Part shown: positions 6,705 to 44,729 of the stretch, in pieces | Layout: each line of letters opens with the position of its first letter | How positions within the stretch are numbered: position 1 is the first letter of the stretch | Source of the DNA: Lachnospiraceae bacterium | GTDB taxonomy: Bacteria > Bacillota > Clostridia > Lachnospirales > Lachnospiraceae | Assembly (NCBI GenBank): GCA_029068555.1 | Contig: JAIECJ010000094.1 | Location: 62,001 to 126,000, forward strand | Direction: 5' to 3' | Length of the DNA: 64,000 bases | Translations under genes and position numbers: made by a program | Notes under the pieces: generated by a model | Seen by the model: only the letters and a program-made list of their open reading frames with translations | Databases searched by the model: none | Told to the model about the DNA's origin: nothing

Positions 6705-7856
6705 GTGAAAAAAATATTAATAACAGGTGGAGCAGGTTTTATAGGAACAGAGATAGTGAAGCAGCTGCACCAAAAGGGCGGATATGAAATTACGGTATTG
6801 GATGTAATGACACAGCAGATACATGGGCAGGATTGGGAAAAATCTTATTTGTATCAGTCTATTAGGGATTTTTGTAAAATTATTAAGGCAGATGTAAGGG
6901 ACTTTGACATGGTTAAGGAAGCTGTCGGTGATAATGAATGCATTATTCATTTGGCGGCGGAAACTGGTACAGGACAGTCGATGTACATGATTAATCAGTA
7001 TAATGAAGTAAATATTATGGGCACATCAAATCTTTTGCAGGCAATATCAAGTCTGGGGGATAGAGGCAGGGTAAAGAAAATTATTTTATCATCATCCAGA
7101 TCGGTATATGGTGAAGGAAAGTACAGGTGCCCTGAATGTGGAATTGTTTATCCATCTGCGCGTAATAAGGAGAATATGCAGAAGGGTGATTTTGGGATGT
7201 ATTGCGATGTGTGTGGACAGAGACTTGAAAAAGAGTATACTTCAGAGGATAGTATGATAAAGCCGGCATCTTTGTATGCATTTACCAAATATGCGCAGGA
7301 AAGAATGCTGGAAACAATGTGCCCCGCGCTTGGGATAGAGTATACGATATTCCGGTTTCAGAATGTATATGGTGTGGGTCAATCGTTAAAAAATCCGTAT
7401 ACTGGTATTTTGTCAATATTTTCAACACTTATGCTGGAGAATAAGCCTGTAAATATATTTGAGGATGGACTGGAAAGCCGAGATTTTATCAATGTTGTGG
7501 ACACTGCTGCGGCAGTGATTAAGTCTATCGACGAGCCAAGAAGTAATTCAGAAATAATTAATATTGGAAGCGGAATTGGGACAAGTGTAATTGAAATTGC
7601 AGCGTTTTTGAAGAAAGCTTATGAGAGCAAGAGTGTTATAAATATAACAGGTGATTTTAGAATTGGTGATATAGCACATAATATAGCGGATATATCTAAG
7701 GCGAAAGCGATACTGGGATTTGAGCAGAGGATTTCACTTGAACAGGGGCTTGAGCAGTTTTGCGCCTGGGTTAAGGGACAAAATATTGATAATAGCGGTT
7801 ATGAAAAATCATTAAAGGAAATGGAAGATTCTGGGATGTTTGTGCGGAAGCTGTAA
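6705..7856 (+). CDS. NAD-dependent sugar epimerase (extended SDR) with zinc-ribbon-like insert
   Basis: KILITGGAGFIGTEIV; YAFTKYAQE; CPEC...CDVCG insert; GTG start 6705 preceded by GGAGG. Confidence 0.85.
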   Translation: MKKILITGGAGFIGTEIVKQLHQKGGYEITVLDVMTQQIHGQDWEKSYLYQSIRDFCKIIKADVRDFDMVKEAVGDNECIIHLAAETGTGQSMYMINQYNEVNIMGTSNLLQAISSLGDRGRVKKIILSSSRSVYGEGKYRCPECGIVYPSARNKENMQKGDFGMYCDVCGQRLEKEYTSEDSMIKPASLYAFTKYAQERMLETMCPALGIEYTIFRFQNVYGVGQSLKNPYTGILSIFSTLMLENKPVNIFEDGLESRDFINVVDTAAAVIKSIDEPRSNSEIINIGSGIGTSVIEIAAFLKKAYESKSVINITGDFRIGDIAHNIADISKAKAILGFEQRISLEQGLEQFCAWVKGQNIDNSGYEKSLKEMEDSGMFVRKL

Positions 7857-7870
7857 GGTGAGTATTGAAA

Positions 7871-10021
7871 ATGGGAAAAAGAAAGTTTTACAAAAATTCT
7901 TTTTTAATAGTCTGGTTTATGTTGACTATTTTCGGTTTTATCTATATAAGGGGAACGCGGTACGCTTCATTTTCAGGTGATTACAATAGAAGCATTCAAT
8001 TAAATGAATGTTTGGGTGAAGTGAATCAATATGAAACTTCGGATGGCTATAATTTTGTGGTGCAAGGTGATGACCCTTGGATTTTATTGGATTTTAGTTC
8101 ATTAACTGGCAACGGGATAAGGGGAGTTGCGATTGAGCTGAATTCTTCTATAGCTTTGTCATCTGTTAAGATGTTTTATGGAAGAGAATCAGCTGATTTC
8201 ACAGAGCTGGATAAAACCGTTCTGGAGGGACAAGGTAGTGTAATCGAGACAAACTTTCCGGAAGCTTTCAAATATTTAAGGCTTAATATCAGTCAGGATT
8301 TTGGTATTGCTAGTATTAGTATTGCGGATGATTATAAAATACAATATAAAAATGTTCATTTTAAGTATATGTGCATGCTGCTAATCAATTTGTTGATTTC
8401 TGCATTAATTGCTTATAGTGAGAGATTTAACAGGAAGCTAATAAAAGTTGATGCACAGCTAAAAAGTTTTGGAAAGCTGTTATTTATTAATAAATTAAAA
8501 GTATTTATAAGGGTTATTATACCTTTTGCCATATTTATTTTGCTTTTTGTCTGCGAATATATTTTTGGCAGTAGGAGGGGGACCTTGTATTTTAATATAT
8601 ATCGCGTGCTGGTTTTTACATGTATAATAAGCATTTTAATTTTTGCCTACTTATATCGAAATATATGTATGCAGTATGTTCATATCTATTATTTTATCCT
8701 TGTAATGAGTATTGGGACATGTACAATACTGACAATTCCGGCAGTTGCCGGAACAACTTGGGACGACGAGACACATTATTCCAGGACAGCAGTTGTGTCG
8801 TGGGGACAAAATGGCTTAATTTCCTACGCGGATAATGAAGTTTCCTATCCATATATATTTCGATTTTGGATGGACGAAAGCAGTATATATAAGCATGAGA
8901 TAAGAGAATATTGGGAGGAGTCGATAGACACAAAAGCGGAAATTAATCCAGTGCTGGAAAAGTCCGAGAATGCAGGGGGACTCGGGGCAACATTTGTATC
9001 ATATATTCCGGGAGCTGTAGGTTTGGTGATCGGGAGAGGATTAGGATTAAGTTTTACACACACATATATGCTTGGCAAATGGATGAATTTGTTATGTTAT
9101 TCAGCTCTCTTTAGTTTGTCAATAAAAATGGTTAAAGAGAGAGGAAAACTGTTAATTGCTGTAATTGGCATGATTCCAACCAGTCTGTGTCTGGCTTCCG
9201 CATATGCATATGATTGGTGGGTCGTAAGTTTTGTTATATTTGGATATGCAATGTGTATTAGGGAAGTGCGGCTATTTCAGGAAATACGTATGCCTCAGCT
9301 CGTGAAAATACTTTTTATTATGGTAATTGGAATATTACCTAAGGCTGTATATTTTCCATTGCTGTTTCCGGTCATGTTTATGGATTATAAAAAGGATAAA
9401 CATACTCATGTTAAGCGATTTGCCGTAGTTTTTGCTATGGTTATATTAATAGCTACATTTGCTTTGCCCATATTATTTAACGGTGCTGGAACAGGTGATA
9501 CTAGAGGCGGAGAGGCGGTAAATTCTTCGGAACAGATTAAGTATATACTTAATAATCCCCTGCAATATACACTTATTTTGCTTAAATTTTTAAAAACGTA
9601 TTTGTCACCGGATCAGGCACATGATTATCTGACATATATGGCTTATTACGGAAAGGCAGAATATCATACTTTATGTATGCTTATAATAGGTGTAATTGCA
9701 GTCATTGACAACGGTAAGCTAAGTGAGAAGTCACGGATTATAATTTGTCAGCGGTGTGCGGCGGCAGCTGCATGTTTTGCGTCAATGGCATTGGCAGCCA
9801 CAGCTCTTTATGTGTCATTTACACCTGTTGGATATGACACAGTGCTGGGATGTCAGTACCGATATATACTTCCAGTTCTTTTCCCATTTTTGTATTTTAT
9901 AGGGAAAATGGATATAGATGTTGGTGAGAAAATTAAGAGTAATATATTTGCAATAGCGACAACAATTATGGCTATAATATTTTTATATGGCTTATATAGT
10001 TTGCGAGTATGTAATTTTTAG
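7871..10021 (+). CDS. DUF2142-family membrane protein
   Basis: Polytopic; AGTTWDDETHYSRTAVVSWG and PKAVYFPLLFPV typical of DUF2142; ATG at 7871 (track uses TTG 7865). Confidence 0.75.
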   Translation: MGKRKFYKNSFLIVWFMLTIFGFIYIRGTRYASFSGDYNRSIQLNECLGEVNQYETSDGYNFVVQGDDPWILLDFSSLTGNGIRGVAIELNSSIALSSVKMFYGRESADFTELDKTVLEGQGSVIETNFPEAFKYLRLNISQDFGIASISIADDYKIQYKNVHFKYMCMLLINLLISALIAYSERFNRKLIKVDAQLKSFGKLLFINKLKVFIRVIIPFAIFILLFVCEYIFGSRRGTLYFNIYRVLVFTCIISILIFAYLYRNICMQYVHIYYFILVMSIGTCTILTIPAVAGTTWDDETHYSRTAVVSWGQNGLISYADNEVSYPYIFRFWMDESSIYKHEIREYWEESIDTKAEINPVLEKSENAGGLGATFVSYIPGAVGLVIGRGLGLSFTHTYMLGKWMNLLCYSALFSLSIKMVKERGKLLIAVIGMIPTSLCLASAYAYDWWVVSFVIFGYAMCIREVRLFQEIRMPQLVKILFIMVIGILPKAVYFPLLFPVMFMDYKKDKHTHVKRFAVVFAMVILIATFALPILFNGAGTGDTRGGEAVNSSEQIKYILNNPLQYTLILLKFLKTYLSPDQAHDYLTYMAYYGKAEYHTLCMLIIGVIAVIDNGKLSEKSRIIICQRCAAAAACFASMALAATALYVSFTPVGYDTVLGCQYRYILPVLFPFLYFIGKMDIDVGEKIKSNIFAIATTIMAIIFLYGLYSLRVCNF

Positions 10022-32927: not shown

Positions 32928-33066
32928 AATATGTTAGATAATAGTGATGTAATATTTATAAGAAATTTGTCAGAATATGTACTGTAAAGAATATCATAAC
33001 TTTATAAGGCGTTGCGAAGCCTAAAGCTTTATGAATACCGGGATAAACATATTAAGGAGTAATAGC

Positions 33067-34368
33067 GTGGCGAGAGGAAATGATGCAATTCCAACTTGGA
33101 GCGGATTTAATTACCAGGGAAAGATAATGCTGCTCTATATTATTAATTTAATGAATCAGGCAGCAGCCGATAAGGACAAAAGAGAATATTCCGTAGAATT
33201 GGAAAAAACAGAAGATTTCTGTATTCTTTGTGATAGAAAATACATATCCTTTCATCAGGTCAAAGCATGGTTGTCGACAAACAAATGGAGGAGCTACATT
33301 GATGCAATGGATAAGCTGCTAAAGCATAGAAACGATTGTAATGTATTAAATGCGAAATGCTATCTCGTGACAGCAAAGGAGATAAAAGACTGGAATGATA
33401 CGGCAAATACATACAGCCCGGAAATAGAACCATATAAGTATCAGTCGAATGTTGTGAGCGTTTGTGATGTTGGGAAGTTTATTGTGGAGGAAATTAAGAC
33501 GTATTTGAACAATAAGGGACATGCGGCAGCACACGCGGAGATTGTGTATGGTGAATTGTGCCTGTATCTGGATGACCTGATAGCCGCAATGCATAAAAAA
33601 GGAGCAAAAAATAGATGCTATACGATTCTGTTTTCTGAGATTGCCGGAAAAATGGAAGAAGCTGTTAATAAGACAACTGTGCGGGAGGAATTCTATTTAA
33701 AAGAAAAAGTGTATGAATATATTATGGGTAATATAGAGCGTGTGTTCGGGGAGTTTTGTCAGGATGAATGCGGAATGGTTTTAACAGATTGTGGTAAAAA
33801 GTGTGCGGCGAAGGAAGCCCATGACAAGATGATGGAAATCTCCGATTATACAAATTTCTGCAAAATACTGAATCCGAGTAAAATAGATGGGTGGAACAAT
33901 GCACTGACCATGGCTGCAAATTTTCCGGAAGACAAATTACAAAGTGAAATTTACGAATTGCTTTATCAAAGCAAAAGTCCAAAAAAGGTTTCAGGGGATG
34001 AGAACAGCATATATCTGGAATCAAAATTTTCAAAATCCCCCAATGGCAGGATTATGCCTACTTTTCTGGATTTGTCAAGGGTGAACGGAAAAGAAGAAGC
34101 TTTACAGAGGAAATTTCAAAACATAATAAAAAATACGGATATTTCACATCTTTTAGAAGGTAACAGTATTACTGTGATACCTGGAAATTATATGGGAAAA
34201 TTATCCCAGGCAAAAATAACTTCCGGCTGGCAAAAAAGTAACCCGGAAAAAGGCAGTGAGGAAAAAAATAATCCGGAAGAAAGCATAAGTCATTATTATA
34301 GGGACATAGAACTGATTTCCTCAGAAGAACTGCGCCAATATTTTGAGAAGAACGGAGGCAATCAATGA
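33067..34368 (+). CDS. ABC-three component system subunit with N-terminal restriction-endonuclease-like domain
   Basis: IPTWSGFNYQGKIMLL...VELEKTEDFCILCDRKYISFHQVKAW (QxK nuclease-like motif); gene order; GTG 33067 with AAGGAG RBS. Confidence 0.65.
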   Translation: MARGNDAIPTWSGFNYQGKIMLLYIINLMNQAAADKDKREYSVELEKTEDFCILCDRKYISFHQVKAWLSTNKWRSYIDAMDKLLKHRNDCNVLNAKCYLVTAKEIKDWNDTANTYSPEIEPYKYQSNVVSVCDVGKFIVEEIKTYLNNKGHAAAHAEIVYGELCLYLDDLIAAMHKKGAKNRCYTILFSEIAGKMEEAVNKTTVREEFYLKEKVYEYIMGNIERVFGEFCQDECGMVLTDCGKKCAAKEAHDKMMEISDYTNFCKILNPSKIDGWNNALTMAANFPEDKLQSEIYELLYQSKSPKKVSGDENSIYLESKFSKSPNGRIMPTFLDLSRVNGKEEALQRKFQNIIKNTDISHLLEGNSITVIPGNYMGKLSQAKITSGWQKSNPEKGSEEKNNPEESISHYYRDIELISSEELRQYFEKNGGNQ

Positions 34369-35084
34369 TAAATACCATAATAGACATTATTCATTCGCTA
34401 AATGGAGGCAGTGTCATTCCATTCCAATCAGATGAAACAACGACGGTTGATTTAGGGAATGACGCGGTAAAATTGTTTGTCGACTCATCGGGAACAGAAA
34501 AAAAATACTATTACTTTGCTGCATATAAAATGGATGATGAGAAAAAAGATAATTTAGGGCAGATTGAAAGGAATGTATTTGGGAGTGAGGTGCACAAAGG
34601 CGGCGAAAAACCCAATCCGAGTGATTCTTATATGATTTTATTTTGGAAAGTTGACGCAATTGATGAGAAAATTTTCCCATATGTTATCAACGTCGAAGAA
34701 AACGAATTTTTTTATAAAAAATATGTTTTTTACTATACTGAACAGGAACTTGCCGGTTTTAAAAAATGGTATAGGGACATGCAAATGAAAGGGGACGTTA
34801 ACCTTGAGAACGTTCTGAATTTAGTAAGGAATTTGGATGAGGAATCAGATCATGTAAAATTTTTCATTCGTTTACTGATAAAAGTCCCTTTTTTAAATCC
34901 AGTATTTCCAAAGGCAGTTATGGAAGACTTTGACAAAATGGTACAGGCAAAAATAAATGTAAGTAAAAAGAAACAACAAGAGGTTAAAAGTGTAAATGAT
35001 ATTTTTTTGAGAGCAATAAATGATGATGAAGACATGGAAAAACTATCTGATATAATATATCAGAAATTCATGGAGGAAAAATAG
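34365..35084 (+). CDS. ABC-three component system middle component
   Basis: ATGA overlap with the upstream gene; lies between subunit 1 and an SMC-like ATPase. Confidence 0.6.
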   Translation: MINTIIDIIHSLNGGSVIPFQSDETTTVDLGNDAVKLFVDSSGTEKKYYYFAAYKMDDEKKDNLGQIERNVFGSEVHKGGEKPNPSDSYMILFWKVDAIDEKIFPYVINVEENEFFYKKYVFYYTEQELAGFKKWYRDMQMKGDVNLENVLNLVRNLDEESDHVKFFIRLLIKVPFLNPVFPKAVMEDFDKMVQAKINVSKKKQQEVKSVNDIFLRAINDDEDMEKLSDIIYQKFMEEK

Positions 35085-35085
35085 T

Positions 35086-37392
35086 ATGGGTTATACGTTC
35101 AAGCAGTTGTGCCTGAAAAATTTCAAATATATTACGGACGAAAGACCGCTGGAATTTCAATTTGACAACAGGAATATTGTAATTTTAGACGGACAGAACG
35201 GATATGGTAAAACAACTCTGTTTGATGCAATTGAAATATTATTGACAGGAAAAATCAAACATTTTAATGAAGCGCTACAGAACAGGGGATTAGAAAATTT
35301 AGGGACCTTGGCAAATGACATCAATAAAGATATTACGATATCTGCAATCCTGTTATCTGATGAAGCGGATGAGCTGAAGATAGAAAGAAGGCTGTTATGT
35401 GGGAGAAATTTTGAGAGTGAAATTTCCTTAAATGGGGAGAAAGCAGAACAAGATGATTTGTATGGGAAATTAAAATTCAGCCTGAATATGTTTGATATCG
35501 GTACATATATTTCCCAGAGTGAGTCGCTGAATTTTTTGCAGAATAAATATAAAGAAAGAAAAGCCTGTGTCACATCTTTATCCGAGAATTTTGAGTTGGA
35601 AAGCAAAATACAAAAACTGAAACAGCTTCAGGATTTTTTGGAGCAAAGGGTTTCATCCGAGACTAGTCAAAAAGAAAAAGAGATAACGGATATTGAAGAG
35701 AAAATAGTTTCTATACAAAATCAGGTAAATAACATTTCCCTGAATTTGGAATTGCCAGGTGAGGATGTCAGGCTGTTTGAAGAAAAAGATTACCCTTTTG
35801 ATGTTATAAAATTAGATGATTCAATTATTTATGAAGCAGTTGCCGCGCCGCTAAGGCAGATAAGGAATTTTGTGGAGCACTATGAGGAATACATGAAATA
35901 CATGAATAATGCCACGCTGTCTGAGCTTGAAAATATTTCGAAAAATACCTATATGGCATTGTTTTATAAAAAAGAGATTGAGCTGCTTAATTCAAATGAA
36001 GAACTGCTTCAGAAATTAGTTCGGTGCAGGCAGTTGTTAAAAAATTATAATGATTATAAATGGTCAATTGACGAGGAGCTTTTTGAAAAAGCCGCTGTAG
36101 ATAAGGGTACTGTCCTGCAGCTAATACAATTGTTGGCAAATCAGCAGACGCAGCGAAGCCAGCTTGAAGAAGCTGATAAAGCGCTGGAACAGATGACAAC
36201 AGTAAGAAGGGCTTTTATCAGCCAGTATAACGATGTTGTAGATGCTGGAAAGTTCGAAAAGGATGTATGTCCTTTGTGCGGTACAAGGCGCAATGACATT
36301 CAACAAGCTATTGCAGAGACAGAAAAATTTATAAAAAACATACACACAGAAGACGTGAAGAAAATTGACGATACAGAAAAAGAAATAACAAATACATTTC
36401 TCGCAGAGATAGTACCAAAGCTAAGGCAGTTTCTTAAGTTGAATGAACATTTACTTCAGATTTACAATTCATTGGCGGAGTGTAGAACGCTTTCCACTGA
36501 CAACCTGCAGACAATGCTTGATAAAGTGGGACTGGCAGAGCTGATGACACAAAGAAAAGAAGAATTTGATATCAATGACTTTTTGCAACAATATGAGATA
36601 ATGGCAATGGAAATCCATAAAATAGCACAGCCCGTTCAAATTGATTTCGGCAAAGAGCAGATTGATTTGTACAAGTCGATTCATAGCACATATTATCATG
36701 ATAAAAAGCCAAAACATTCAGTGGAGCAGCTTCGTAGCAAAGAGCAGTATATTGCAAAACTGTTTAATGATAAACTATTAATGCAGCTTTCCGCAGAAAC
36801 AGAGAAAGTTGAAAAGTTAAAGGAACGTTACGAAGAATACTGTGTCAAAAAGAACAACATGACAGAAACGATAAAAGTGCTGGTGTCAAAATATGATGCT
36901 GCCAATAAAGATTACCAGACACAGCTTGCAAATGCAATAAAGATTCCCTTGCTTGTATATAGTGGGAGAATTATACAAAATTATCCTCTGGGACTTGGAA
37001 TTAAGGCAGTTGTCAGGACAAACCAACTGGTATTTGAAGCGGATTCAAAAAGTGGGAATGATGTCTATAATATTTTAAGTACAGGACAGTTAAACGGGCT
37101 TTCCATAGCATTTCTGCTGGCAATAAAAAATGTATACGGCAGAACGGACGGACTGGATATATTGTTAATAGACGACCCATTACAGACAATAGATGATATT
37201 AGTGCCATATCATTAGCGGATTTACTGACACAGCAGGACATTGGACAGATTGTTTTATCAACGCATGAGGACGGCAAGGCAGCCCTTCTCAAATACAAGT
37301 TCATAAGGGCAGGACTGACCGTCAAGGAACAGGATATGCAGCAGCAGTATATGTCGGTGGTTCTGAACAGTGATCGTTTGTCAGTTGGATAG
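35086..37392 (+). CDS. SMC/Rad50-like ABC ATPase of an ABC-three component system
   Basis: Walker A DGQNGYGKTTLFDAIEILLTGK; coiled coil with CPLCGTRR zinc hook; LSTGQLNGLSIAFLLAIKN; Walker B LDILLIDDPLQTIDD. Confidence 0.88.
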   Translation: MGYTFKQLCLKNFKYITDERPLEFQFDNRNIVILDGQNGYGKTTLFDAIEILLTGKIKHFNEALQNRGLENLGTLANDINKDITISAILLSDEADELKIERRLLCGRNFESEISLNGEKAEQDDLYGKLKFSLNMFDIGTYISQSESLNFLQNKYKERKACVTSLSENFELESKIQKLKQLQDFLEQRVSSETSQKEKEITDIEEKIVSIQNQVNNISLNLELPGEDVRLFEEKDYPFDVIKLDDSIIYEAVAAPLRQIRNFVEHYEEYMKYMNNATLSELENISKNTYMALFYKKEIELLNSNEELLQKLVRCRQLLKNYNDYKWSIDEELFEKAAVDKGTVLQLIQLLANQQTQRSQLEEADKALEQMTTVRRAFISQYNDVVDAGKFEKDVCPLCGTRRNDIQQAIAETEKFIKNIHTEDVKKIDDTEKEITNTFLAEIVPKLRQFLKLNEHLLQIYNSLAECRTLSTDNLQTMLDKVGLAELMTQRKEEFDINDFLQQYEIMAMEIHKIAQPVQIDFGKEQIDLYKSIHSTYYHDKKPKHSVEQLRSKEQYIAKLFNDKLLMQLSAETEKVEKLKERYEEYCVKKNNMTETIKVLVSKYDAANKDYQTQLANAIKIPLLVYSGRIIQNYPLGLGIKAVVRTNQLVFEADSKSGNDVYNILSTGQLNGLSIAFLLAIKNVYGRTDGLDILLIDDPLQTIDDISAISLADLLTQQDIGQIVLSTHEDGKAALLKYKFIRAGLTVKEQDMQQQYMSVVLNSDRLSVG

Positions 37393-37432: not shown

Positions 37433-38134
37433 ATGTATTTGCAAATGGAAAGGAAAAGTCTAAAGATACCGTTAAACCATAAGAAAGATATCCAAAGAAG
37501 TCAAAGCTCCCAAAAGAAAACCATATTTAACAAGTGTGGAAACGCCTGTATTCAGAGAGCGGCTGGGGATTTACTATGTGGTGCAAAAGTATGGTATGTG
37601 GATAAAAAAGGCAAAAACTGTGAAACCAGTTTTCGGACTGGTGTAAATAATGGTGCACAGGGGAGCGTCAGCGCGGTATTGGACACGTGCGATCGCTAAT
37701 ATTTAGGAAATATGAGGAATATGAAGGGACAAAATCCTCCAGGACAATGTGCTGAACCGCATGCAGTGAGTAATTGCTTACAGGAAATTGACATAAACAA
37801 TTTTTCGCGTATCACACATATATCTGTATCGGATGCAACATTCACACAACAATGTGGAACAAATGTTAGTAAAGCACTCAAAAAGGAAAAAGATCAGGAA
37901 CAGGCCAGAAGACCAGTAGGAAGTGTAATGCCGCAAGGGTGTATTCCACTGACAACAGCAAGTGAGTACCAGACATTTGTAGAACATTTTTTGTCCAAAA
38001 AAGCTCTGCGAGAGTTGCAGCCAGATGAGGCAGGCGCAAGAGTAGTTGGCAAAAAATTTCCGAGGTGTACCACCTGCCAGCAATGGATTAACGAGGAAAA
38101 TCGGGTTATTCTTTCCCAAATTAGCTCAAGATAA
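37433..38134 (+). pseudogene. YwqJ-like deaminase-domain ORF interrupted by one in-frame TAA (37697-37699)
   Basis: ORFs 37433-37699 and 37712-38134 share a frame; GQCAEPHAVSNC and FPRCTTC resemble C-A-E and CxxC deaminase motifs; AGAGGAG RBS at 37433. Confidence 0.5.
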
Positions 38135-38442: not shown

Positions 38443-38471
38443 TGATAATCCTGTATTATCTGTTGAAAATC
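38443..38471 (+). promoter_or_regulatory. 29-bp shared upstream element, copy 1
   Basis: TGATAATCCTGTATTATCTGTTGAAAATC, ends ~80 bp before the ORF at 38552; perfect inverted copy at 42683-42711. Confidence 0.75.
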
Positions 38472-38551
38472 GAACGTTACCCATTTACCATCGTTTCTAT
38501 AAATAAAATAATATAAAATATCCATGATAAAAATGCTTAGTTTGAGGTAAT

Positions 38552-40882
38552 ATGATGGAAGACTTTAAATTCGTCTGCCGCGACAATGAGCTTGCATGTG
38601 CAAAAAATGCATTGGCAAGCAACGATTTGGTTATATACTATTATTTTGATAATAGTGGAGTTTCTCATTATCTAAAAAAACTTGCAATGGACTTATGCGT
38701 AGATGAGCAACGATGTTTTTACATTGATTGTGCACGTCCTGAAAGTGTGGCAATACAGATTGCAGAACAAGTACTTTCTAATTGTGAAAAGAGTGAAATA
38801 GATAAATATACCAGAAGTGGGAATGAGGTTTTTCGTAGTGTAGTACTAACCCTGTTTTCAGCAGTTGATTTGGTTCCTGTTGTAAATATTGGAATGCTTG
38901 CCAAAGGCCTGATCGGGGCGATTAAGGATACTGTTGATGTAGACATTGATCATATCTCGGATTATAAGATTGAAAAAGCATTAATTAATATGTTCCAGAA
39001 AATCAATAACACAAAAAAAAGTGATATATATATATTACTGGATAATGCAGATATGCTTTCACCCACTTCATTAGATTTTCTTGCCAAGATGTTAACTTTA
39101 GATATATCGAAAATAATGTTTACAATACCCCAAAATGCTATGGATTCAGGAATTGAAATTATATCAAAACTGCTCATGGAAGGTCAAAATGTACATAAAA
39201 TTGATGATATTTTTCAACGCCCCGACAATCAGTTTATTTGTGGTTTGTTTGAGTGTTACAAACAAAAAATAAAGGATGAATATTTTAACATATTTGACCA
39301 GCATGAGCGCAATATTCATATTATTATGTCTTTTATCAGAGGCTTTAATATGGATTTTTTGCAATTGAATCCTGAACTTATCTGCATATTAAAAATATTA
39401 TTAATATTAAATACTAACTTAGCAATAAATATATTAAAGAATGTTTATGAAAAATCAGCATACCTATTAAAAGAAATTTCTGATGCTGAATTTATGCAAT
39501 ATATAGTTCAATTAAGAAATTTTGGTTTTTTAGATTATCCCTCGGATAATGTCATTCATTTGAATAAAAATATTGTGACAGAGAGAAATATCAAAATATC
39601 TCTGGTAGAGAAACTGACGATTTCCAGACATATAGTTGATGTATTTGAGCAGTATAGAGAAACATTGACTATACCGCAACTAAAATTTGCAATACATAAT
39701 TTAGATAAGGATTATAATCGGAGAAAAAGATATATACTTTTACTGTTACAAAAACAAAAAGGAAATGATGAAATAGATCAGCAATATTTAGATCAGCTTT
39801 TTTATTTGGAGAATAAGAATGAATTATTGCAGGTCTGCTCTATGTATTATAATTTGCAGGTATATGATGTCCCATATCTGCGAATGAAACAACACCCAGA
39901 TTTGTGCAATGAACATGAGTGTCAAATACTTTTGGCGTTATTACAGGAAAGAATGCATAAAGGCAATTATTGTGATAATTTATGGGATTTGATACGCTGC
40001 AATAATAATCGTGATGAATCCTGTTTAATTATTGCTATATTATTCACAGCATTATATAACAATGGCGAAAATGAACAATGTCACAAAATCTTAAATGAAG
40101 AAACTTATGAATATTATTATAAAAATTATGAACATTCTCGCTATTTTCCTTTTCTTTTGCGAAATATAAGTTACTATATAGAAGATGTAAATAACGGTAT
40201 TGAAAACTATAACTATTGTCTTGCAAAATTTAAAAACCATGATTGTGTTAATTATAATCGAACACTTTCTAATTTTATTGGGTATCTGATGAATCATGAT
40301 GATGATAAATATGCCCAAATTTTTCTAAAACAAAAGATCCAAGAAGCTTTTAAGATTTTAGAATTTAATGATTCTAAATATTTATATTTAAATATAAATT
40401 ATGGAATTTATTTAATGCGCGAATTAGATGAGGATCCTACTAAATATTTTGATGCCATATTGTATAATTCTGGAACAACAGAGACACCATATATCTATGC
40501 AAAAATAAATCAGGCGCTCTATGTATCAAAAAAAGATCCCGCCAAAGCGCTTGTTCTGCTTGACGAGATTTTTAATGAATCAATTAGGGAAACCTGTGTT
40601 GTACCCACAAAGATATTTTACAAAATTAACCGAATTCTTGTTGAGTATATGAATGGTATTAATGATGAAAATTTGCTTGAAGAAATAAGGCAAAATCCTT
40701 TGCGGGGAAATACCAAATATGCACAAAAATTGTATAGCATTTACAAATACAAATTTACAAATAAAATTAAATATAGTAAATTGGACTGGAAGAGGCTGTC
40801 TTTGCCCGGTTATATTTTTTATCACGGATTTGATGCACAGTTGCTATTATCAAGTTTTGACAATCCCAATTGTAATATATGA
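38552..40882 (+). CDS. STAND-like NTPase-fold protein with degenerate P-loop and helical-repeat C-terminus
   Basis: FVCRDNELACAKNAL STAND-style N-term; YYYFDNSGVSHYLKKLA in P-loop position lacks GK[ST]; DIYILLDNADML Walker B-like. Confidence 0.6.
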   Translation: MMEDFKFVCRDNELACAKNALASNDLVIYYYFDNSGVSHYLKKLAMDLCVDEQRCFYIDCARPESVAIQIAEQVLSNCEKSEIDKYTRSGNEVFRSVVLTLFSAVDLVPVVNIGMLAKGLIGAIKDTVDVDIDHISDYKIEKALINMFQKINNTKKSDIYILLDNADMLSPTSLDFLAKMLTLDISKIMFTIPQNAMDSGIEIISKLLMEGQNVHKIDDIFQRPDNQFICGLFECYKQKIKDEYFNIFDQHERNIHIIMSFIRGFNMDFLQLNPELICILKILLILNTNLAINILKNVYEKSAYLLKEISDAEFMQYIVQLRNFGFLDYPSDNVIHLNKNIVTERNIKISLVEKLTISRHIVDVFEQYRETLTIPQLKFAIHNLDKDYNRRKRYILLLLQKQKGNDEIDQQYLDQLFYLENKNELLQVCSMYYNLQVYDVPYLRMKQHPDLCNEHECQILLALLQERMHKGNYCDNLWDLIRCNNNRDESCLIIAILFTALYNNGENEQCHKILNEETYEYYYKNYEHSRYFPFLLRNISYYIEDVNNGIENYNYCLAKFKNHDCVNYNRTLSNFIGYLMNHDDDKYAQIFLKQKIQEAFKILEFNDSKYLYLNINYGIYLMRELDEDPTKYFDAILYNSGTTETPYIYAKINQALYVSKKDPAKALVLLDEIFNESIRETCVVPTKIFYKINRILVEYMNGINDENLLEEIRQNPLRGNTKYAQKLYSIYKYKFTNKIKYSKLDWKRLSLPGYIFYHGFDAQLLLSSFDNPNCNI

Positions 40883-41820
40883 TTTATAAGCTCATCATAT
40901 GTATTAAAATGTTTTTCTAAAAAACTATTTACAAAACCACCTTGAACGCCAAGGTTCATTAGAGTATTTACTTCTAAAAAGTATGGTATGGAACTGTTTT
41001 TTTCAACAATAAAATCAATACGTGCATAATCACATGGTTGCATTTCTTGGAAGTATAGTTTTGATAAATAATAAAGCTGATTGTTGAGCCCCTCATCTGT
41101 ACTTGTATTCCGTGACATTCCCCTTTCTGCAAAGCGTTTTTGTGAATGCGTCATGATATTTCCAATTTTGTCAGACCGGGTATAATGAGGAGGGGCAATT
41201 AATGGATCCCCCTTTGTTGTATTAAGTATCGAGACACCATAACATAATCCATCAATATACTTTTCTACAATGACGTCAATATCTTTATGGAAATAACCTT
41301 CTGATTTTTGTATTGCTTCTTCCCATGTCTGACAAAGTGAACTTTCATCAATATTGATTGAAGCGCTGCCAAACCGGGGTTTCACAAAATAAGGACCAGG
41401 AAAAGGTGCAATCTTTATCAATGGGTAATCCCTGGAGGCAGTCACCCATGGAGCAGTCCTGAGCTCAACATGTTCAGCGAGTTGTTTAGACATACTTTTA
41501 TCTTCAACAAGAGCACGTATATTTGGGGCAGCTCCAATGTATTTTATTTTATAAAATTCGCATAATGATTGAATAAATATTTCACTGTTCTTAAATCCCA
41601 GACGATTATAAACAGACCAGACTAATTGATATTTTTCATGGTTTTGTATAAAATAATTCACATCACTTGCTGTTTCATAGTCGTAATTTGATTTTTTTAG
41701 TACATCAACGATTTTCCAATGATAAGTTTCTGCATAGAATCTTTCTTCGGGTGTTTGAGGTGGAACCAAAACGGTTCCGTTTGTGGGCGCAAATTGCGCT
41801 AGAAATAATATTTTGGCCAT
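40822..41820 (-). CDS. ATP-grasp ligase, D-Ala-D-Ala-ligase-like
   Basis: GPYFVKPRFGSASINI, VIVEKYIDG, YARIDFIVE...PYFLEVNTLMNLG. Confidence 0.8.
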   Translation of the reverse strand: MAKILFLAQFAPTNGTVLVPPQTPEERFYAETYHWKIVDVLKKSNYDYETASDVNYFIQNHEKYQLVWSVYNRLGFKNSEIFIQSLCEFYKIKYIGAAPNIRALVEDKSMSKQLAEHVELRTAPWVTASRDYPLIKIAPFPGPYFVKPRFGSASINIDESSLCQTWEEAIQKSEGYFHKDIDVIVEKYIDGLCYGVSILNTTKGDPLIAPPHYTRSDKIGNIMTHSQKRFAERGMSRNTSTDEGLNNQLYYLSKLYFQEMQPCDYARIDFIVEKNSSIPYFLEVNTLMNLGVQGGFVNSFLEKHFNTYDELINHILQLGLSKLDNSNCASNP

Positions 41821-41848
41821 AGCAATTCCATTTATTTAATCAGTTATT

Positions 41849-42601
41849 TTATAGTGTTCCAACATAGCAACAGGTTTTGTTGGGTAAGATCAATTGCCCC
41901 GCTGTACTATGTAAATCAAAATAATGAGACAATTCTCCTATGTAATTGAAATAATCTGGATTGTCTTCACTGAGGCGGTAAGATGCTGATTGGTGCAATC
42001 CAACAAAACGCTCTTTATCAAAAATAATATCATTGGCAACTATTTTAGTTGTATATCCATTTACAAAAAAATCCTGATAAGCATTCTCACTATTTGCTCC
42101 TCTCATTCCATTTGTAGCTCCAGAAAACAAAGGACAATATTTATGACTGATAGCATCTATTTCTTGTACCATTGTGTTTGTCTCATCACGACGATTCCAA
42201 ATTAAAATAATCTTACCGCAAGGCTTTAAAATGCGTAAACACTCAGCCCTAAAAGCTTGCTTATCAAACCAATGAAACGATTGCGCTGCTGTAATAAAAT
42301 CCACACTATTATTTGAAAGTGTAGTATTTTCTGCTGTTGCATTTATGGCATGAAATTTTGGATTTCCATTATGAGTTTTTTCGGATATATTTCGCATATC
42401 ATCATTTGGCTCTATGGCATATACTTTTGCACAAAGATTTAATAGATGGTTTGTTAATATACCAGTACCTGCACCTATATCTGCTACAATGCTGTCTGAG
42501 TTTAAACCAATATATTTAAGATAGTTCATTAGGGAAGCAGGATAATCAGGGCGGTATTTGGCGTAAATCTCACTTACACCTACAAATATATTTTCATTCA
42601 T
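41849..42601 (-). CDS. Class I SAM-dependent methyltransferase
   Basis: YAKYRPDYP...VADIGAGTGILT; FHWFD. Confidence 0.9.
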   Translation of the reverse strand: MNENIFVGVSEIYAKYRPDYPASLMNYLKYIGLNSDSIVADIGAGTGILTNHLLNLCAKVYAIEPNDDMRNISEKTHNGNPKFHAINATAENTTLSNNSVDFITAAQSFHWFDKQAFRAECLRILKPCGKIILIWNRRDETNTMVQEIDAISHKYCPLFSGATNGMRGANSENAYQDFFVNGYTTKIVANDIIFDKERFVGLHQSASYRLSEDNPDYFNYIGELSHYFDLHSTAGQLILPNKTCCYVGTL

Positions 42602-42682
42602 ACGTTTGCATCCTTAATAAAAGAGAATAATTTTTTATTATTTTATTTCCGTACTTGGTTGATAACTTCTGATTATCAATCA

Positions 42683-42711
42683 GATTTTCAACAGATAATA
42701 CAGGATTATCA
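42683..42711 (-). promoter_or_regulatory. 29-bp shared upstream element, copy 2
   Basis: Reverse complement of 38443-38471, 29/29; ends ~81 bp before the methyltransferase start. Confidence 0.75.
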
Positions 42712-42869
42712 GTTATTTTAGCTTTGTAATTTACATTTTATGTAAGCTTATGAAAAGCAATTTATAGAAAAAGCAATTATTTAACAGTAAATGGAAGAAA
42801 TATGTAGAATTTTGTAGTAGAATGTATTGTATAATAACATTTTATTACAGAAGGAGTAAGACTGACCAG

Positions 42870-44729
42870 ATGCAGATGAACAAGGATTTCCAAAAGGCAC
42901 CGTTGGAATCCGATCAGGATTTCGCGAATTTTTTACAGAGGGTTCGGAAAGAACGGGATATACATTTCGAGCAGTTGGCTGAGGGATTGATGTCGATAAG
43001 TCAGCTTTCAAGAATAGAAAAAGGACAGCGTCCGGTTCATAAAAATATGAGGGATCGGTTGCTGGGGCGGCTGGGGATTGCAAGTGATTTGTATGAAAAT
43101 CTACTGGATATTGACGATTACAGGGCGTGGGAATGCCAGCGAAATATTTTGTTAGCGGTGGAGCAAAGGGAAACACAGAAGGCACAGCGGTTGATTGCGG
43201 AGTATGAGAGAAAAATGTCGTCAAATAGTAAATTGAAACAGCAGTTTTGTCTTGTGATGAAAGCGGAGGCTTTGAAACAACAAAATGCAGATTCGGTGGA
43301 AATTGGTGCTTGTTATGAAAAGGCAGTGAAAATGACCGTTCCCAAAATAGAGGATTTGTGTCTGGCAAAAAGTTTGCTATCCATACAGGAAATCAATATG
43401 GTTTTGGAATACGAGTTCTACACTAAGGATAAGGGAAGAAATTTTTTGGAAAAGAGCAGGGCGTTAATGGCGTTTGTGGAGAATACTGTTTATGACGAAC
43501 TGTCAAAGGTAAAAATTTATCCCAAGATTGCATATTATTATTTGCGGGAAGTATTTTCAGACCAGAGCAGGCAGACAGCGGGTGCACTAAACGAAAGTCT
43601 ACGAATCTGCAATCAGGCGATTGAGATGCTGCGGGACACTGGGAGGGCATTCTACTTGCTTGAATTGTTGGAAGTAAAGTGCAAAATACTGGAAATTATT
43701 GAGGAAGGCACGGATGAATACAGGGAGAGCAGGGAGTTGGAAAATTTGTTGAGAAAGCTCTATGAGGAATATGGGATTCCGGCATATATGCAGGATTGTG
43801 TTTATCTGTATCGGCAAAGATGGATATTTTACATTGGTGATGTTCTGCGTATTCGCAGGAAAATGTATGGTCTGACGCAGGAGGAGCTTTGCAAGGGAAT
43901 CTGTGCGACAAAGACGTTGCGCAGGACAGAGAAAATGGAAAGAAATATGCATCAGGATCTGCTGAAAACGCTGATGCGCAGGCTTGGGTTATCTAAAGAG
44001 TACCAGAGGGCGCGGCTTGTGACAAATGATAGGGAAGTGTTAAAGTTAAGGGATGAATTGCTGATTTGCCGCAATAATCATGATATTGCAAGATGTAGAG
44101 ATATATTGAACTTAATGAAAGAGAAGCTTTTACTTGAGATTCCGGAGAATCAGCAATATATTATAGAATTAGAAACATCTCTAGATTGGATGGAGAATAA
44201 AATAACCAAAGAAGAACTTGTTATAAGAGAAGAAAAGGCTCTTAAATGTACATTGGATATTGATAAATTATTTTTGGCAGATGAAATTTATCTGACGGAG
44301 ATGGAAATGTCATGTATCCGTAAAATGATACAAGGCATTGAGGGGGAAAAGAAACGAAGGTATATTAATTTATTGTGGCGATTTTTTGATTGTTATGAGA
44401 AAAAGTATGTTCTGTCAGACTATATTGCTATGTACGAGTTTGTCATGATTCGCATGGCAAGTGAATTGGCAAATATGGGAGAGTTTAATATAGCAACTGA
44501 TATAGACAATAAGATACTGAAAGAATCATTGAAGTGCAATAGGGTTTGGGCAGTCAGTAATATTTTGTATGACATATTATGGAATGATAAAGAACAGAAG
44601 GAGCAAAGTGGACAGGATTTAGAAAAAGAAAAAATGACTGAAAGATTAAAACAATGCATTTTACTCAGTCATTTTTGCAAACAAACATTTGAAGAAAAAT
44701 TTTATAATAATAAGTTATACCAAGAATAA
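42870..44729 (+). CDS. Dual-HTH regulator with TPR-like helical region (RRNPP/Rgg-like architecture)
   Basis: XRE-type HTH at N-term (FLQRVRKERDIHFEQLAEGLMSISQLSRIEKGQRP) and second HTH (RIRRKMYGLTQEELCKGICATKTLRRTEKMERN); helical remainder. Confidence 0.75.
   Translation: MQMNKDFQKAPLESDQDFANFLQRVRKERDIHFEQLAEGLMSISQLSRIEKGQRPVHKNMRDRLLGRLGIASDLYENLLDIDDYRAWECQRNILLAVEQRETQKAQRLIAEYERKMSSNSKLKQQFCLVMKAEALKQQNADSVEIGACYEKAVKMTVPKIEDLCLAKSLLSIQEINMVLEYEFYTKDKGRNFLEKSRALMAFVENTVYDELSKVKIYPKIAYYYLREVFSDQSRQTAGALNESLRICNQAIEMLRDTGRAFYLLELLEVKCKILEIIEEGTDEYRESRELENLLRKLYEEYGIPAYMQDCVYLYRQRWIFYIGDVLRIRRKMYGLTQEELCKGICATKTLRRTEKMERNMHQDLLKTLMRRLGLSKEYQRARLVTNDREVLKLRDELLICRNNHDIARCRDILNLMKEKLLLEIPENQQYIIELETSLDWMENKITKEELVIREEKALKCTLDIDKLFLADEIYLTEMEMSCIRKMIQGIEGEKKRRYINLLWRFFDCYEKKYVLSDYIAMYEFVMIRMASELANMGEFNIATDIDNKILKESLKCNRVWAVSNILYDILWNDKEQKEQSGQDLEKEKMTERLKQCILLSHFCKQTFEEKFYNNKLYQE

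Follow-up and report, generated by a model that had tools for sequence, protein, structure and literature searches.

The G segment of phage Mu is a kilobase stretch in which two convergent alternative gene sets lie between short inverted sites, with the recombinase gene just outside; the segment encodes tail fibres and is turned by Gin, a serine recombinase. The pdif modules of Acinetobacter plasmids are gene modules flanked by inverted Xer-type sites, with the recombinases acting in trans. Tyrosine-recombinase inversions of the PsrA/RecV type are known to flip a promoter or parts of hsdS. Phase variation by such inversion is documented for PsrA of Streptococcus pneumoniae (PMC7096588) and RecV of Clostridioides difficile (PMC7446863), as is XerC/D recombination in Acinetobacter plasmids carrying pdif modules (PMC9947245). 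The main paper of the PhaseFinderDC inverton survey of gut bacteria describes inverted repeats of 10-40 nt, with a median of 3 invertons per genome in Clostridia (PMC11892184). Here we analyzed 64,000 nucleotides of the genome of a Lachnospiraceae bacterium (contig JAIECJ010000094.1, positions 62,001 to 126,000; the whole stretch is called the window), in which three genes lie between inverted copies of a 29-bp sequence. It is likely that this pair represents inverted core sites of a tyrosine recombinase framing an invertible cassette of 4.2 kb, which is probably phase-variable. The features concerned are, in window coordinates:

38443-38471, + strand: left inverted site, TGATAATCCTGTATTATCTGTTGAAAATC, 29 bp, pointing inward; its core dyad GATAAT-CCTGT-ATTATC lies at 38444-38460.
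38501-38512, + strand: AT-rich block AAATAAAATAAT, common to the other side; a possible -10 element of an internal promoter, with a consensus match near chance.
38552-40882, + strand: ST, a STAND-like protein of 776 amino acids with an NTPase-like N-terminus that carries a degenerate Walker A motif, a winged-helix-like middle and TPR-like helical repeats.
40822-40882: overlap of the ST and AG reading frames, tail to tail, 61 bp.
40822-41820, - strand: AG, an ATP-grasp ligase of 332 amino acids, distant from D-Ala-D-Ala ligases.
41849-42601, - strand: MT, a class I S-adenosylmethionine-dependent methyltransferase (Methyltransf_11) of 250 amino acids with an intact VADIGAGTG motif.
42637-42648, - strand: AT-rich block, partner of that at 38501-38512.
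42661-42677, - strand: second dyad, GATAAT-CAGAA-GTTATC, on the methyltransferase side only and with no partner opposite.
42683-42711, - strand: right inverted site, exact reverse complement of the left site; its core dyad lies at 42694-42710.

The cassette and its relatives resemble the PsrA and RecV systems in their putative tyrosine recombinase, their short inverted repeats and a recombinase gene that is often nearby. In contrast to these systems, a whole cassette of 4-5 kb with two convergent gene sets would be turned, the cargo varies by genome, and the sites have a GATAAT-N5-RTTATC frame with a cassette-specific centre. With the Mu G segment they share a kilobase layout in which short inverted sites frame convergent, putatively alternative gene sets and, in the relatives, a recombinase just outside, whereas the putative recombinase is of the tyrosine type and the cargo other than tail fibres. 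The flanking inverted sites of an Xer-type recombinase that would act in trans recall the pdif modules. However, pdif sites follow a fixed 28-bp dif consensus, while here the centre and the outer flanks differ per cassette and the recombinases form a separate family. Like the invertons described in the main paper of the PhaseFinderDC survey, the sites are short inverted repeats flanking putatively flippable DNA in gut bacteria; no description of the GATAAT-N5-RTTATC dyad was found in that main paper (PMC11892184). Recombinases beside anti-phage genes have been remarked on (PMC12529663). Thus, DNA inversion by tyrosine recombinases is known, but in the open-licence literature searched we found neither this combination of recombinase, site and cargo nor a description of the dyad, of the recombinase family as an inverter or of the cassette.

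The 29-mer and its exact reverse complement, reported in an initial annotation of the sequence, were confirmed as the sole such pair in the 4.14-Mb genome. No further copy with up to 3 mismatches was present in the window or in the whole genome (4,136,062 bases); none was expected in dinucleotide shuffles, and the exact 29-mer was absent from the viral contigs searched. Each copy contains the 17-bp dyad GATAAT-CCTGT-ATTATC. The near-equal spacing to the outer genes was also borne out, the left copy lying 80 bases 5' of the start codon at 38552 (+) and the right copy 81 bases 5' of that at 42601 (-). The AT-rich block is indeed present on both sides, within an inverted pair of 19 nt (95% identity; 38501-38519 / 42630-42648), but its distance from the 29-mer is unequal (about 30 versus 35 bases). 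The initial annotation had further considered the pair as terminal inverted repeats of a mobile unit. A framed unit without a recombinase of its own fits the window; a transposon was rejected, as there is no transposase between the sites, only a single copy in the genome, and the bases adjoining the two 29-mers differ.

ST, AG and MT form one real unit, with the ST arm convergent with the MT-AG arm between the inverted sites. A search with AG returned a relative (71% identity) in genome G311 of the same genus, and an alignment of the two AG sequences led to three more loci in public genomes: L008 in an uncultured Lachnospiraceae metagenome-assembled genome (MAG), L009 in a Butyrivibrio MAG (G336) and L010 in strain D16-36 (G335). 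ST is cut by a contig end in L008 and L009. All five AG loci found contain the three genes in the same arrangement, in agreement with the earlier view that they belong together, and their surroundings are unrelated. The tail-to-tail overlap of ST and AG measures 61 bp in four of the five cassettes and 18 bp in the fifth. The cassette is rare, occurring in 1 of 397 sampled genomes of the family and in 2 of 38 genomes of the genus. Note that relatives were sought with patterns from two relatives followed by tblastn, a procedure biased to close relatives, so that a distant AG relative without the other two genes could be missed. Single-sequence searches with ST found no relative in genome contigs, viral contigs or plasmids, nor did an alignment-based search of viral contigs.

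Although the genes of these cassettes are 55-79% identical, the 29-mer is not conserved between them. The G311 cassette has its own exact inverted pair, GGTACTGATAATTGGAAATTATCGGGCTGA; the G336 pair is GATAATTAAAAGTTATCCGTT, found on L009 and on another contig, L051; and the L010 pair consists of 77 bases around GATAATAAGAAATTATC. Common to all pairs is only GATAAT-N5-RTTATC. Alignment of 20 dyads extended this frame to roughly TGATT-GATAAT-N5-RTTATC-YGTTGA; the window site conforms to it. In the seven cassettes with both ends in hand, which include three with other cargo (G313, G300 and G317; see below), the exact repeats extend over 21-95 bp. The spacer is identical within the pair in all seven and nearly always differs between genomes (window, CCTGT; G311, TGGAA; G336, TAAAA; L010, AAGAA; G313, ATATG; G300, CAAGT; G317 has two dyads). 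Within-pair identity covers the non-symmetric five-base centre and some of the flank. The overlap (crossover) region of tyrosine-recombinase sites must match between partner sites and may differ between site pairs. Since the copies are identical within a pair and yet different between genomes, a recombinase core site is a better explanation than an operator.

A shared operator or promoter, at which one regulator would bind the dyad and co-regulate both arms, had been proposed in the initial annotation. The symmetry of the dyad is compatible with this proposal, and each outer gene has a site upstream, with the same pointing and with the AT-rich block on both sides. However, the copies are identical through the non-symmetric spacer, while spacer and flanks vary between genomes; a regulator site would stay constant across genes as similar as these. 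Within-pair identity also bears on a static inverted repeat, a relic of insertion or duplication without present function. Such a relic would agree with the unbroken window contig and with the lack of an adjacent recombinase, but wherever both ends of a cassette are known the two copies have stayed identical, each time at another sequence, and identity of short repeats is not maintained unaided. We regard this explanation as very improbable.

The dyad is closely associated with a recombinase family. We surveyed 21 loci of one Xer-like family (Pfam Phage_integrase) in 38 genomes of the genus; the catalytic R-K-HxxR-H-Y residues were intact in 10 of 10 recombinases aligned. A dyad was found within 300 bp downstream of the recombinase stop codon in 13 of the 21 loci (about 0.01 expected from the dyad density of the own genome), and in 11 of these it lay within about 75 bp of the stop codon or overlapped it. 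This adjacency argues further against the operator, as does the scarcity of the dyad pattern, which occurs only about 8 times in the own genome and, for most of the other copies, has no visible regulon downstream. When the pattern was reversed as a control, each genome had 0 to 1 matches. With pair sequences that are genome-specific and dyads that adjoin recombinase genes, co-regulation from a shared operator appears improbable.

Intact recombinases adjoin sites in G311, G336, G313, G300 and other genomes. In G311, the recombinase gene is on the ST side, with 12 bp between its end and the left dyad. In G336, a recombinase 48% identical to the G311 protein is encoded on the MT side, 38 bp ahead of the dyad there, and the orientation of the cassette relative to the recombinase is therefore opposite in the two genomes. 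In this small sample, the most divergent recombinases (G311 and G313) are those whose sites deviate most in the outer flanks, which would be expected from joint change of enzyme and site. The own genome (G000) encodes two recombinase paralogs outside the window, C36 and C125, which are 86% identical to each other. No complete inverted partner dyads were found beside them; at C36, one dyad lies 47 bp from the contig end. At the C125 locus (L031, 7388-12244), the paralog is located downstream of secA and is followed by genes for a Dam-like methylase and an HNH-type protein. The same recombinase locus in G301 (L113) is without these two genes, and the locus is possibly an insertion hotspot.

The same kind of site also frames other cargo. 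In G313 (L111, G313:C32, 2099-7575), an identical inverted pair surrounds genes for a lysine-aminomutase-like radical-SAM protein, a TIR protein, a STAND-TPR protein and an ATP-grasp protein. The recombinase flanks one end, and the neighbouring gene beyond the pair (7672-9510) encodes TIR and SLOG-like domains. The G300 locus (L110, G300:C15, 9142-16204) has three identical dyads, present as both inverted and direct copies. Its framed cargo comprises a radical-SAM gene, an insertion sequence-type transposase gene and a pentapeptide-repeat gene that occurs twice, in opposite directions. The G317 cassette carries a double dyad at each end, and in it the gene for an ATP-grasp/radical-SAM fusion runs convergently to that for a pentapeptide protein; like that of the window, this cassette is without an adjacent recombinase. 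In G326, a methyltransferase (34% identity with the window MT) and a serine hydroxymethyltransferase (SHMT)-like gene follow a recombinase and dyad; a dyad with the same centre stands on another contig beside a cytidylyltransferase-like gene. At the C36 locus of the own genome (L030, G000:C36, 1966-10178) and in G320 (L114, G320:C56, 1292-8423), MBL-fold, protease-like and SMC-like genes (the last encoding 1170-1185 amino acids) lie beside the recombinase. In both genomes the first of these genes is preceded by a dyad, located no more than 50 bp from the end of the contig. This gene set is likely another framed defence-type cargo.

Different cargo in the same frame could also mean that the inverted dyads delimit a mobile unit, integrated or exchanged in trans by an Xer-like or other enzyme in the manner of pdif modules, with flipping as a side reaction without a role. 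The five unrelated surroundings in five genomes, the rarity of the cassette (1/397 and 2/38 genomes) and the window copy without an adjoining recombinase are consistent with such mobility. On the other hand, excision and insertion by a tyrosine recombinase need direct repeats, whereas the present sites are inverted; neither an empty site nor a target duplication turned up, and the recombinase, where present, is fixed outside one end. We consider mobility of this kind unlikely, if less so than an operator.

The assemblies provide signs of inversion. A contig end lies within about 120 bp inside the dyad in 7 of the 13 recombinase-dyad loci compared to 0 of 8 loci without dyad (Fisher p about 0.015, by hand). 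In G334 and G316, flanks end in the same inner sequence, flush with the dyad, over exactly 127 and 55 bases, respectively; the G329 contig stops 77 bases away from the edge of its dyad. The two inner ends of L010 have an outer sequence of exactly 77 bases in common. No third copy of this 77-base repeat is present in the contigs of that genome, which leans against a long static repeat in L010, although a contig may be missing. As 55, 77 and 127 are usual assembler k values, the assembly graph branches at the dyads, a pattern that is suggestive of a mixture of both orientations. G335 furthermore contains a repeated, interspersed element (L052-L062, L068-L087), some 700 bp long, that has near-palindromic arms and dyads GATAACTCCCTGTTATC. 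Its 500-bp core is found in both orientations, with four junction types occurring 9, 9, 8 and 10 times. This element supports site-specific inversion at dyads of this look; it may belong to another enzyme.

In an invertible cassette, the Xer-like recombinase would bind the GATAAT/RTTATC arms and exchange strands across the 5-7-bp centre. The centre would have to match in both sites, and recombination between the inverted sites would turn the segment around. In the relatives, the enzyme would be supplied by the gene just outside one site, and in the own genome the paralogs C36 and C125 may act in trans. Flipping would likely bring the other arm to face an external promoter or read-through transcript, from which we infer an effect on expression. 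By analogy with the Mu G segment, cells would then express either the ST arm or the AG/MT arm; reading of both at once would be disfavoured by their tail-to-tail overlap. In five cases (L010-ST, G313-ATP-grasp, L008-MT, G300-radical-SAM and G311-ST), only 27-46 bases separate the dyad from the start codon. This is too short for a separate inner promoter, so that transcription there should start outside or in the site.

Several observations weigh against inversion as the explanation. The window dyads are 91-92 bases from the start codons, with weak AATAAT promoter-like matches inside; this distance could hold internal promoters, so that flipping need not switch expression, and switching in the window cassette is uncertain. 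The window contains no recombinase or recombinase remnant (tblastn best E 0.03). Its contig is continuous through both sites, which implies that one orientation prevailed in the culture sequenced or that the cassette is locked. Terminator-like hairpins (by eye) lie between recombinase and dyad in several relatives. The opposite orientations in G311 and G336 compare two species, not one, and contig breaks also arise from inverted repeats longer than the assembler k. The G335 element resembles the cassettes only in its dyad, and we infer inversion in this strain from assembled sequences.

We also analyzed the cargo proteins. ST had no sequence match in Pfam, NCBIfam, PADLOC or the PDB. Its AlphaFold2 model is modest (predicted local distance difference test score (pLDDT) 64, predicted template modelling score (pTM) 0.46). 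It shows the order of a STAND NTPase: strand-helix-strand...strand-helix-strand, a winged-helix-like part and helical repeats. The top Foldseek match was the STAND-TPR protein 6mfv (E 3e-7), with Avs4 and Avs5 lower down. Judged from this model, ST is STAND-like, as initially annotated. The Walker A motif is degenerate (FDNSGVSHYL, FSNSGLSHYL and FNDSGLTHYL versus GxxxxGK[ST]); because the lysine is missing in all three full-length sequences, ST is probably not an ordinary ATPase. BLASTP linked ST neither to the STAND protein encoded in the G313 cassette nor to the 775-residue G317 protein. The ATP-grasp fold of AG was supported. Against the D-Ala-D-Ala ligase model TIGR01205, AG scored 79.7 bits; this is far below the curated Ddl cut-off (245.65), and an assignment as D-alanine--D-alanine ligase was rejected. 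The initial suggestion of a defence module found no backing in PADLOC, where no system model matches ST or AG and MT matches only the generic methyltransferase part of mad2. The STAND-like ST, the TIR/STAND cargo in G313 and the neighbouring ABC-three-component (Lamassu-like) operon suggest a conflict role of the cargo, with at most an even chance. The ATP-grasp, radical-SAM, methyltransferase, SHMT-like and cytidylyltransferase-like genes suggest a biosynthetic or surface-modifying role, again with an even chance at best.

The cassette is neighboured in the window by the following:

33031-37392: three-gene ABC-three-component / Lamassu-like operon (CTD1/LmuA-like, MComp1 and LmuB-like SMC ATPase), left of the cassette.
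37433-38134: short reading frames between this operon and the left site, with one weak YwqJ-deaminase match; this looks like a decayed gene region.
42822-44729: protein of 635 amino acids with two helix-turn-helix domains, divergent from MT and not conserved with the cassette; a possible regulator.

Beyond this locus, the data allow a more tentative reading, possible rather than probable: a genus-wide platform in Lachnospiraceae, in which one Xer-like family and the GATAAT-N5-RTTATC frame serve exchangeable kilobase cassettes, framed by inverted sites of cassette-specific sequence, that flip between two gene sets, comprising STAND/TIR proteins, ATP-grasp, radical-SAM, methyltransferase and pyridoxal phosphate enzymes. 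If so, the platform would combine alternative expression of the Mu G type with cassette exchange around conflict or small-molecule modules. According to the inverton survey, few invertible loci per genome have been reported so far in Clostridia-type genomes (median 3, PMC11892184). The dyad, when inverted, with an identical five-base centre and beside a recombinase, would then be a means of finding invertible multi-gene cassettes in a major family of gut bacteria. Inversion at such sites would also account for how cassettes encoding unknown enzymes, and in some cases the TIR/STAND proteins typical of conflict systems, could persist as on/off mixtures in a population.

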